A DNA stretch of 42,144 nucleotides, taken from the NCBI GenBank assembly GCA_015063035.1, contig SUTG01000012.1, positions 1 to 42,144 of the forward strand, read 5' to 3'. A program made the position numbers and the translations under genes. The notes under the pieces were generated by a model. It saw nothing but the letters and a program-made list of their open reading frames with translations, ran no database searches and was not told the origin of the DNA. Of this stretch, positions 6,951-40,333 are shown in pieces. This DNA comes from Methanobrevibacter olleyae. Lineage in GTDB: Archaea > Methanobacteriota > Methanobacteria > Methanobacteriales > Methanobacteriaceae. Within the stretch, counting starts at the first letter, position 1, and each line of letters begins with the position of its first letter.

Positions 6951-6974
6951 AAAAAGAGAGTAAAGAAGTTTTAA

Positions 6975-7164
6975 AAAAACTATTTTTAATTAACTTCAAA
7001 ATAATTTAATTAAAAAAAAAACTACTTTTAATTAACTTCTAAAGACTTTAATTAAAAAAAACTATTTTTAATTAACTTCAAAATAATTTAATTAAAAAAA
7101 ACTATTTTTAATTAATTATCAAAACATTTTTATTTAAAAAATCTATTTTTAATTCTATTTTTAA
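6975..7164. repeat. Tandem AT-rich repeat, about 40-bp unit, between convergent genes
   Basis: Four to five imperfect units begin near 6979, 7021, 7061, 7101 and 7143, each with a core like actatttttaattaacttc. Units 4 and 5 also repeat the end of the adjacent minus-strand gene (ttaattaattatcaaa). On both strands the units provide T-runs, so the block may act as a bidirectional transcription stop for the convergent genes; that is inference. Confidence 0.75.
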
Positions 7165-17951: not shown

Positions 17952-18120
17952 TTGATTCCTCTTGATTCGTTTTATAAATTATTTTAAAATATCAGTATCA
18001 TGAAAATAGATTTGTAATCATTTAAAAATCTATATTATATTAAAATATATTTATTAAAGTATATAATATTTAGTTAATATTAAATTAATGTTCATTTAAT
18101 AATCCGTTAATATTCAACTA
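17952..18120. other. Divergent spacer upstream of gatD
   Basis: This AT-rich DNA holds no gene. A TATA-like tttataaatt near 17971-17980 could direct gatD transcription, though it lies close to the start codon. The repeat array and palindrome that follow (18121-18243) belong to the other side of the divergent region. Confidence 0.4.
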
Positions 18121-18220
18121 ATCTCAACTAATCTAAACTAATCTCAACTAATCTCAACTAATCTCAACTAATCTCAACTAATCTAAGTTAATCTAAGTTA
18201 ATCTAAGTTAATCTAAGTTA
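18121..18220. repeat. Ten-unit tandem repeat with 10-bp period
   Basis: Ten contiguous 10-bp units lie here. Six are of the form atct(c/a)aacta (18121-18180) and four are atctaagtta (18181-18220). A partial unit (ttcaacta) precedes them. The period is about one DNA helical turn, so every unit presents the same face. The array sits between gatD and hxlR and ends four bases before a perfect palindrome. It is too short in unit and lacks spacers, so it is not CRISPR. Confidence 0.95.
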
Positions 18221-22598: not shown

Positions 22599-22690
22599 AC
22601 AAGATTTAATTAATTTTAATTTAATTTAATCATATTTAATTTAATTAAAATTATTTAATAGAATTAATTAAATTAAAAAAAGAATTAAAG

Positions 22691-22717
22691 AATTAAGTTT
22701 TTTTAAAAAACTTAATT
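22691..22717 (-). terminator. Perfect 13-bp palindrome, terminator-like
   Basis: AATTAAGTTTTTT and its reverse complement flank a single T. On the minus strand it is followed by a T-rich tract. It lies between the small membrane reading frame (22802-22891) and tRNA-Ala, so it may end the transcript of the former. Confidence 0.45.
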
Positions 22718-22801
22718 GAAAAACAAAATAAAAATAACAGTTACATCTATTATTTTATTGATACATTGCACATTGTGCAAGAAAGTATTATTATATAGTG
22801 C

Positions 22802-22891
22802 TCATATATAATCGAGGATAATATCTCCCTCGTTTAGGAATATTAACATTCCCAAAAATACTAGGAAACTAAAAAATACAGTCATAAACAT
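22802..22891 (-). CDS. Predicted 29-residue hydrophobic membrane peptide
   Basis: ATG at 22891 opens 29 codons ending in TGA (22804-22802). GGAG at 22902-22899 lies exactly 7 bases before the ATG, an ideal ribosome site. The peptide starts MFMTVFFSFLVFLGMLIFL, a single transmembrane helix rich in Phe, and ends with an acidic amphipathic tail (NEGDIILDYI). The minus strand carries a consensus TATA (TTTATATA, 23003-22996), so the transcript should begin near 22973 and carry two hairpins before the ribosome site. A terminator-like palindrome lies downstream at 22717-22691. Size and layout resemble bacterial type I toxins or small membrane regulators; that is inference. GC is higher than in the flanking spacer. 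Confidence 0.5.
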   Translation of the reverse strand: MFMTVFFSFLVFLGMLIFLNEGDIILDYI

Positions 22892-22911
22892 TTAGCGACT
22901 CCATTTTTAAA

Positions 22912-22969
22912 GTTCTATATTAAATAGAACATAAAATTCTATATGATTTTGGAAATTGAAAAATCATAT
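22912..22969 (-). promoter_or_regulatory. Double-hairpin 5' leader of the 29-residue peptide
   Basis: Two perfect inverted repeats lie between the predicted start site (about 22973) and the GGAG. ATATGATTTT/AAAATCATAT (22941-22969) has 10-bp arms and a 9-nt loop. GTTCTAT/ATAGAAC (22912-22930) has 7-bp arms and a 5-nt loop. The first would form at the extreme 5' end of the RNA and could protect it; the second ends about 10 bases before the ribosome site. Confidence 0.5.
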
Positions 22970-22995
22970 ATTATTTACTATTATAAAAAAACTGG

Positions 22996-23003
22996 TATAT
23001 AAA
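22996..23003 (-). promoter_or_regulatory. TATA box upstream of the 29-residue peptide
   Basis: TTTATATA on the minus strand is the exact archaeal consensus, placed about 105 bp before the ATG at 22891. The same bases read tatataaata on the plus strand, so the element could also act in the other direction, toward the hairpin at 23024. Confidence 0.5.
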
Positions 23004-23023
23004 TACATACTATTTAATCCTCG

Positions 23024-23060
23024 GATTGTTCGTATTTTCCAATATAAAGTACGAACAATC
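23024..23060 (+). other. 11-bp-arm hairpin followed by a T-tract
   Basis: GATTGTTCGTA (23024-23034) and TACGAACAATC (23050-23060) are perfect complements around a 15-nt loop, followed by ttttatttta. It lies between the TATA elements and the vsr stop. On the plus strand it looks like a factor-independent terminator or a short structured RNA; on the minus strand no T-run follows. The remaining DNA up to 23165 is plain AT spacer. Confidence 0.55.
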
Positions 23061-23165
23061 TTTTATTTTAGAAAAAAATCGTGTTAAATCATTATAAATA
23101 ATTATAAATCGTTATAAATTATTACAAAAGATAAAAAATTAGATGAAACTGTAATAATTTTCCTA

Positions 23166-23594
23166 TCATTCGTTATCTTGGGAGGTTATTCTATCATATA
23201 ATATTTCAAGTGTCTCTTCACGTTTGTCCTTTTTTAATTCGCACTCCCATACTGTAAGGACAGTCCATCCCATCGCTTTAAGCTCTTCCTGATTACGGGC
23301 ATCACGTTCCCTGTTCCTATAGAGTTTCTTCTCCCAATATTCAACATTGGATTTAGGCATTTTAGCATACTTGCATCCTTCATGAAGATGCCAGAAACAG
23401 CCATGAACAAAGACAGCAGTCTTGTATTTTGGAAGCACAACATCAGGACGTCCAGGATACCTTTTATCATTCTTTCGAAATCTAAGCCCCCTAGCAAATA
23501 GGTACTTTCGAACAAGAATTTCGGGCTTGGTGTCCTTGCCTCTAATCCTTGACATGATGTAACTGCGGGTCTCCTTGCTAAATTTGTCAGCCAT
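23166..23594 (-). CDS. vsr: Very short patch repair (Vsr) mismatch endonuclease
   Basis: This 142-aa endonuclease nicks 5' of T in T:G mismatches formed by deamination of 5-methylcytosine. It is full length and has the family blocks: 'MSRIRGKDTKPEILVRKYLF' with the metal-site Asp/Glu, 'RYPGRPDVVLPKYKTAVFVHGCFWH', Zn-type Cys/His (HGCFWHLHEGC) and 'NRERDARNQEELKAMGWTVLTVWECEL'. GATGATTTC precedes the ATG. In bacteria vsr usually adjoins a cytosine-5 methyltransferase; none is visible here, so this is an orphan copy. Lateral acquisition from bacteria is likely. Confidence 0.95.
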   Translation of the reverse strand: MADKFSKETRSYIMSRIRGKDTKPEILVRKYLFARGLRFRKNDKRYPGRPDVVLPKYKTAVFVHGCFWHLHEGCKYAKMPKSNVEYWEKKLYRNRERDARNQEELKAMGWTVLTVWECELKKDKREETLEILYDRITSQDNE

Positions 23595-38311: not shown

Positions 38312-38330
38312 CTTTTTCCTCCTATAATTA

Positions 38331-38410
38331 AAAATAATTAGAAATAATTATAAATAATTAGAAATAATTAGAAATAATTAAAAATAATTAGAAATAATTA
38401 GAAATAATTA
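38331..38410. repeat. Eight-unit tandem repeat, 10-bp period, between adh and npdG
   Basis: Eight contiguous units of (g/a/t)aaataatta fill most of the adh-npdG gap (176 bp), ending 20 bp upstream of npdG. Like the array at 18121 it has a helical-turn period. In the transcript it would be an unstructured A/U-rich stretch just before the npdG ribosome site. Confidence 0.95.
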
Positions 38411-38487
38411 GAATGGTTTTAAAAAAAAAGTAATGGAAATTAATCCATTACTTTTTCAACATCCATTTTTTTAGGCAATTAGTGAGC

Positions 38488-39564: not shown

Positions 39565-40240
39565 TTCTTTCACCTCAAAAAATTAGAAACATTTATAAAA
39601 AATCTATTTTAAAAAAATTAAGATCCGTGTTAAAGTTTTAAAAACAGCAAAAAACCTTATAAGAATCAAGATTTAAAACTGTTTAATCCGATATTTTCTA
39701 AAAAAACATGATAAAATTAAGTTAATTTAGAAACCAATAGATTTAATATAAATAATCTCTGAATAAAGATTTAAAATATTGAATATATAAAATTTACTAT
39801 TTTTTTATAGATTAAATTCAAATTAAAGGAATTATATTGAATTAATAAGAAAAATAAGGTCAATTGATAATTTTTCATTCATATGATAAGAAAATTATTT
39901 CATATCGAAAAATGATAAAAAAAGGATAAAAATTTTATATGACCATCAAATTTAAAAACAAAAAAATTAAATCAAAATTGAAGTGAAAAAATACTATTTA
40001 TTCAGAAAAGTAATACTACTTTAGAAAAAATTAATAATAAAAATTAAAAAACAAAGTTATGATAAAAAAAACAATACTGCGATAAAATTTATAGTCAATG
40101 ATAAAATTATTAAAAAAAAAGAATTATCCCTATCAATTAATCAAAATGATGCAAATAAAATAAGAAAAAATAAAGGGAATTGGATTAAAAATAACAAGAT
40201 AGAAAAAATAAATAAAAAAAGGAAATTATATGAAAATTAA
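39565..40240. other. Long AT-rich intergenic region upstream of adh
   Basis: About 680 bp lie between adh and the regulator gene, both on minus. TATA-like elements on the minus strand occur near 39786-39795 (ttttatata) and 39592-39599. An imperfect dyad, tttttcattcatatga versus tcatatcgaaaaat, lies at 39871-39914 and could be an operator. A Lys/Asn/Ile-only open frame without ATG at 40025-40240 is compositional noise. Confidence 0.45.
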
Positions 40241-40333
40241 TTATTTCAATAATTCTTTCTTGAAATACCTATAGAACCTATAAGAAATTATTTCAATAAT
40301 TCTTTCTTGAAATACCTATAGAACCTATAAGAA
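40241..40333. repeat. 46-bp tandem duplication of a gene's 3' end
   Basis: 40241-40286 and 40288-40333 are identical over 46 bp (ttatttcaataattctttct and onward). The right copy is the last 15 codons plus stop of the regulator at 40288; the left copy lies outside the gene. On the minus strand the gene ends at the first stop, and the second copy is untranslated. Confidence 0.9.

Follow-up and report, generated by a model that had tools for sequence, protein, structure and literature searches.

What is encoded by the very short transcription unit that lies on the minus strand at positions 23003–22675 of a 42,144-nucleotide stretch of Methanobrevibacter olleyae DNA (hereinafter, the window), and in which processes may its product take part? 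In the initial annotation, the unit was described as a compact gene for a 29-residue membrane peptide resembling a type I toxin, with a small membrane regulator proposed as a fallback. Methanobrevibacter of the rumen produce methane on a major scale, and, to our knowledge, the oxygen response of these strict anaerobes is poorly known. A membrane peptide tied by its promoter to a redox regulon would give a defined, testable target in this respect.

The peptide gene, its frame and its carriers

All the parts listed initially (TATA box, both leader hairpins, GGAG-ATG spacing, 29-codon frame, 13-bp palindrome with T-tract) are found in the sequence, and their succession from leader through ribosome-binding site (RBS) and frame to the palindrome is borne out on the minus strand, where TTTATATA is followed by the leader hairpin, the 7-bp hairpin, GGAG, ATG, 29 codons, the stop codon, more hairpins, the palindrome and T7. 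The features of the unit are as follows.

22996–23003, minus: TATA box TTTATATA, same position and same letters in 11 of 12 genomes, poor BRE
22940–22970, minus: hairpin by the predicted RNA 5' end with 11-nt arms (22970–22960/22950–22940), compensatory changes UA/CG/GC
22912–22930, minus: 7-bp leader hairpin GUUCUAU/AUAGAAC, 96% of cells paired, one pair changed on both sides
22872–22908, minus: RBS-sequestering hairpin AAAAAUGGAGUCGCUAAAUGUUUAUGACUGUAUUUUU covering GGAG and AUG, predicted in all genomes folded, nearly invariant
22899–22902, minus: Shine-Dalgarno-like GGAG, 7 nt 5' of the ATG, mostly base-paired
22802–22891, minus: 29-codon ORF MFMTVFFSFLVFLGMLIFLNEGDIILDYI, ATG at 22891, one predicted membrane span and an acidic tail, conserved in 12 genomes
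22833–22856, minus: hairpin within the ORF, UUURGGA/UCCUAAA, nearly invariant, synonymous sites included
22813–22832, minus: hairpin within the ORF, CGAGG/CCUCG, little variation, no compensatory changes
22790–22812, minus: hairpin over the stop codon; in two genomes, the 3' arm compensates for a TAT/TAC change at Tyr28
22766–22780, minus: 3' UTR hairpin UUGCAC/GUGCAA, three of six pairs doubly changed
22732–22755, minus: 3' UTR hairpin AAAUAAUAG/CUGUUAUUU, two doubly changed pairs
22675–22717, minus: perfect 13-bp palindrome (arms 22691–22703/22705–22717), then T7; conserved in all but one of the 12 genomes and likely to mark the 3' end of the transcript

Transcription is predicted to start at 22973 on the minus strand. 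The BRE ahead of the TATA box was poor in a BRE/TATA matrix scan, and the T7 run lies about 10 nt past the palindrome. Another frame, of 14 codons and preceded by GAGG (GAGG...ATGTATTTATATA, window 22966–23010), overlaps the TATA box; it stays free of stops in the genomes scored, but by eye the codon changes in it seem to be non-synonymous, and it was not adopted, being probably not coding.

The 29-codon frame was recovered from 12 of 19 Methanobrevibacter genomes without stops or frameshifts, and none of its 90 alignment columns is gapped, versus 18 of 118 in the leader and 20 of 128 on the 3' side. Variable columns at codon positions 1, 2 and 3 number 7, 3 and 12, half of the codon changes are synonymous (13 of 26 versus 7.0 expected, p = 0.002), and the replacements are conservative by BLOSUM (p = 1e-4), while all five other frames of the same alignment are devoid of a coding signal. 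The stop codon keeps its position and switches between TGA and TAA among the carriers, and the peptides are 83–100% identical across the 12 genomes. Conservation of the frame with a synonymous bias was precisely what the initial annotation had suggested looking for. The observation is sound and the peptide gene is genuine; the comparison supports a compact structured transcript that would encode a translated single-span membrane peptide.

The peptide contains one hydrophobic stretch (19-residue mean KD 2.56), that is, one span, and has a net charge of −3, no basic residues and hydrophobic moments of 0.04–0.11. Its likeness to TisB, as proposed initially, holds for length; the charge, the missing basic residues and the almost absent amphipathic moment leave length as the only likeness that can be demonstrated.

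Searches with the transcript (82–96% DNA identity to the window) and with the protein gave the same 12 genomes. In the other genera of the family (17 genera sampled, protein profile and covariance model), neither the peptide nor the transcript was found; covariance-model matches in G053 and G054 (E 0.13) were dismissed as lying inside a protein gene. All named genome records with the gene belong to Methanobrevibacter. The gene is single-copy and occupies one fixed place, between nadE (upstream) and gatD (downstream) on every contig of sufficient length, in a comparison of loci that leaves out G005, G009 and G018. In G013, nadE and gatD are 345 bp apart and the peptide gene is absent. A Vsr-like DNA nicking endonuclease (window 23166–23594, PADLOC Vsr, E 3e-32) adjoins the peptide gene on the nadE side in most carriers, not in all.

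In the gatD tree, all carriers whose gatD was usable fall into one clade (support 98/95), which we take to be the M. ruminantium clade; G013/G018 and the group of G008–G010 and G012 fall outside it. One gain followed by stable inheritance would be the simplest reading. Virus contigs and plasmids yielded no homologue encoding the peptide, and a DNA search of phage records was also empty. Since the carriers form one clade and none was found outside the genus, the gene seems to be a stable possession of the clade and not a mobile module.

The promoter dyad and a possible redox control

In 12 of 12 genomes, conservation reaches some 140 bp beyond the TATA box on its upstream side, which was missed in the initial annotation. 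Two elements are located there.

23024–23060, unstranded: operator-like dyad GATTGTTCGTA-N15-TACGAACAATC with MsvR-box half-sites TTCGTA/TACGAA at 23029–23055
23085–23128, unstranded: array built of AT-rich 10-bp units (ATAAYNATTT), conserved, on the upstream side of the dyad

G004 and G001 have a degraded dyad, and in several other genomes the left arm is degraded. Its half-site TTCGTA/TACGAA is identical to the published box of MsvR, the methanogen redox regulator; the M. acetivorans protein must be reduced to bind TTCGTA-N4-TACGAA (PMC3729527). The spacing inferred for the M. acetivorans protein is 7–9 nt from TTCG to CGAA (PMC3729527), against N19 at the peptide promoter; the msvR and fprA promoters of the genus itself also depart from it.

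A V4R (MsvR-type) protein is encoded in 18 of the 19 genomes, and in that of the window (G000:C32:160029, 265 aa) its gene adjoins fprA. The 12-mer TGTTCGTATTTT, chosen after it had been seen at the peptide gene and msvR, occurs six times in this genome versus none for the reversed control: twice in the msvR promoter, once at fprA (oxygen detoxification), once at the peptide gene and twice with no clear link. Over the 19 genomes, 45 sites were counted versus 14 for the reversed control. About 800 kb of genome stretches underlie the promoter statistics. Inverted TTCGTA/TACGAA pairs no more than 80 bp apart number three in a 157-kb intergenic sample versus 0.46 in shuffled sequence, two of the three being the peptide locus in two genomes. 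The half-sites are separated by 4 nt in the published msvR box, 15 at the peptide gene, 26 at msvR of G002 and 59 in most fprA promoters; it was noticed afterwards that these values differ by multiples of 11, a suggestive regularity that would keep the half-sites on one helix face.

The dyad could also be read at the RNA level. Arm matches were scored in 10 of the 12 carriers (without G000 and G006), and in six of the seven genomes scored for wobble, with G004 as the exception, the arm differences are wobble-compatible on the sense strand; the dyad could therefore belong to a longer transcript and form a hairpin in its RNA instead.

Related boxes and arrays were noted elsewhere. Of the fprA promoters of the genus that were examined, most have TTCGTA or a near match 17 bp ahead of the TATA box, with TACGAA on its far side, about 59 nt apart (L257:2203-2214; G000:C32:157702). 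An inverted repeat TTCGTA-N21-TACGAA lies between aspartokinase-like and dapA-like genes (L161:18467-18499; G000:C52:18467-18499), with similar sequences in seven other genomes of the genus, and the 12-mer TGTTCGTATTTT stands upstream of a small 84-aa gene in G001 and G014 (L215:1501, L227:1501). The window contains two more arrays of tandem 10-bp AT-rich units, similar in period to that of the peptide gene and possibly representing phased regulator or histone sites: TCAACTAATC at 18114–18216, just upstream of a 129-aa gene that looks like an HxlR-type regulator, and ATAATTAGAA at 38324–38413, just upstream of a 227-aa gene that looks like an F420H2:NADP oxidoreductase. Besides, a perfect 47-bp tandem duplication (40239–40333) overlaps a 298-aa gene at its 3' end, and 6973–7154 is taken up by a 40-bp repeat array.

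In our opinion, the best explanation, to which we give about an even chance, is a single-span membrane peptide under redox control, with an MsvR-restrained promoter and translation gated by the RNA, acting in the membrane under redox or oxygen stress. Reduced MsvR would bind the TTCGTA dyad upstream of the TATA box and keep the promoter low; because MsvR of Methanosarcina binds its boxes only when reduced, oxidation would free the promoter and lift the repression. We know of no peptide gene described as a member of the MsvR regulon.

A possible but rather doubtful alternative is a small membrane protein that has no redox tie and serves housekeeping or some other kind of regulation, the TTCGTA boxes being coincidental or belonging to another regulator. 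It would agree with the clade-fixed inheritance of the gene and with an N15 spacing unlike that of the studied MsvR sites, but it leaves unexplained why the box is common to the msvR and fprA promoters and is conserved along with the peptide gene.

RNA structure and the toxin question

The transcript folds with z = −5.1 versus shuffled sequence (−2.5 to −6.7 over the ten genomes folded), and the RNAalifold consensus of the alignment is a chain of hairpins in which 95.0% of alignment cells are paired. Doubly changed pairs number 12 (4.9 ± 1.4 in shuffled alignments, no more than 8 on sliding); for the covariation score, the values are 0.121 observed, 0.079 shuffled and at most 0.053 slid. The clearest covariation belongs to the first leader hairpin, the two 3' hairpins and the hairpin over the stop codon, where the tyrosine change is synonymous. 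The RNA is structured on through the coding region and the 3' end, a point absent from the initial annotation. The synonymous difference in the peptide frame is 0.122 versus 0.316 in gatD of the same genomes, and no 28-codon window of gatD is as low (minimum 0.130); synonymous sites so unusually conserved suggest an extra constraint at the RNA level beyond coding.

Base-pairing of GGAG (unpaired probabilities 0.01/0.98/0/0) had also been missed. The RBS hairpin is predicted even in G001, where the alignment misplaces it; being nearly invariant, it gains no support from covariation and is not contradicted by it either. Such conservation is compatible with a translation gate, which it does not prove; such a hairpin over GGAG and the start codon would hold translation low unless opened. 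The gene also provides a covariation-supported archaeal example of an mRNA whose structure appears to conceal the ribosome-binding site, the RBS hairpin itself being supported by prediction and invariance. Read on the sense (minus) strand, G-U cells number 48 versus 6 A-C cells, a count biased to this strand because the structure was predicted on it. The flanks of the TATA box fit either direction; the ORF and the G-U excess point to the minus strand.

A short hydrophobic peptide and a folded mRNA with a buried RBS in a compact unit are also what would be expected of a type I toxin-antitoxin-like unit, in which the peptide harms the membrane and a cis or trans antisense RNA blocks the structured mRNA; pairing between RNAs would also be in keeping with how strongly the start region is conserved at the nucleotide level. 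The partner was sought on both strands with a fixed consensus matrix for the archaeal BRE/TATA (an EM-derived matrix converged on T-tracts). By this prediction, no opposite-strand site that is both good and conserved would transcribe across the gene, and the opposite strand is devoid of a consistent conserved TATA. The candidate past the stop codon (reverse complement AAAGTATYATTATATATAGC) was rejected, since its score is weak and two genomes carry within it a compensatory change that keeps the hairpin paired. The genome contains no second stretch resembling or complementing the start region, the matches being AT-rich 3'-end stretches only.

As to known toxins, the peptide has no match to TisB or other small-toxin families in NCBIfam, PHROGs or PADLOC and none above the cut-off in Pfam. 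The best Pfam match, DUF5976 (E 0.022, 15.1 of 25 bits), is below the cut-off; this domain was found in 0 of 139 genomes, and control genomes gave no signal either.

With no conserved antisense promoter, second copy or plasmid or virus homologue found, the type I reading appears to lack its defining partner, and the gene itself is single-copy, syntenic and vertically inherited. A 2025 paper states that no more than a few bacterial phyla are known to have type I systems (PMC12390103); an archaeal example would therefore be a novelty. We consider this reading unlikely and the label of a type I toxin unit unsupported: of the initial proposal, the comparison backs the membrane peptide on a compact structured transcript, and not the toxin analogy. 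A better fit is a small membrane protein related to stress, which comes close to the fallback offered there.

A bolder variant, the first archaeal stress-induced and RNA-restrained membrane-toxin unit, would combine MsvR derepression on oxidation, an RBS-closing hairpin replacing or standing beside an antisense RNA, and a membrane peptide that halts growth; this is quite unlikely. Finally, it is very unlikely that the RNA, structured non-coding or dual-function, is the functional product and the peptide secondary, since the covarying hairpins in the leader, stop region and 3' UTR and the low synonymous divergence, which would favour it, are set against a strong frame-specific coding signal, conservative replacements, a fixed stop and no Rfam match.

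Comparison with known systems

With bacterial type I toxins of the TisB, Hok and BsrG classes, the gene shares a very short hydrophobic peptide and an mRNA that folds over its RBS. It differs in having a single locus in an archaeon, no antisense RNA found, no profile match to a known toxin family, and a non-amphipathic peptide with a charge of −3 and no basic residue.

The MsvR regulon (msvR/fpaA of Methanothermobacter and msvR of M. acetivorans) is similar in having TTCGTA/TACGAA boxes by the TATA, and here the same 12-mer stands at msvR and fprA; the half-sites of the peptide gene are, however, 15 nt apart instead of the published 4.

Under the redox-controlled reading, the peptide would enter the membrane in redox or oxygen stress and most likely bind and tune a membrane complex, depolarisation or ion leak being less likely. 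Two small proteins of Methanosarcina mazei act on the Mtr complex: MtrI, which is oxygen-responsive and reported only within Methanosarcinales (PMC12774963), and MtrR, which has 49 aa and is H2-responsive (PMC13370731). No homology of either to the 29-residue peptide was shown; the likeness consists in a short ORF, a methanogen host and a probable membrane site, to which MtrI adds a redox link. With both proteins known in Methanosarcina, tuning of a membrane complex by the peptide would be a reasonable mode of action.
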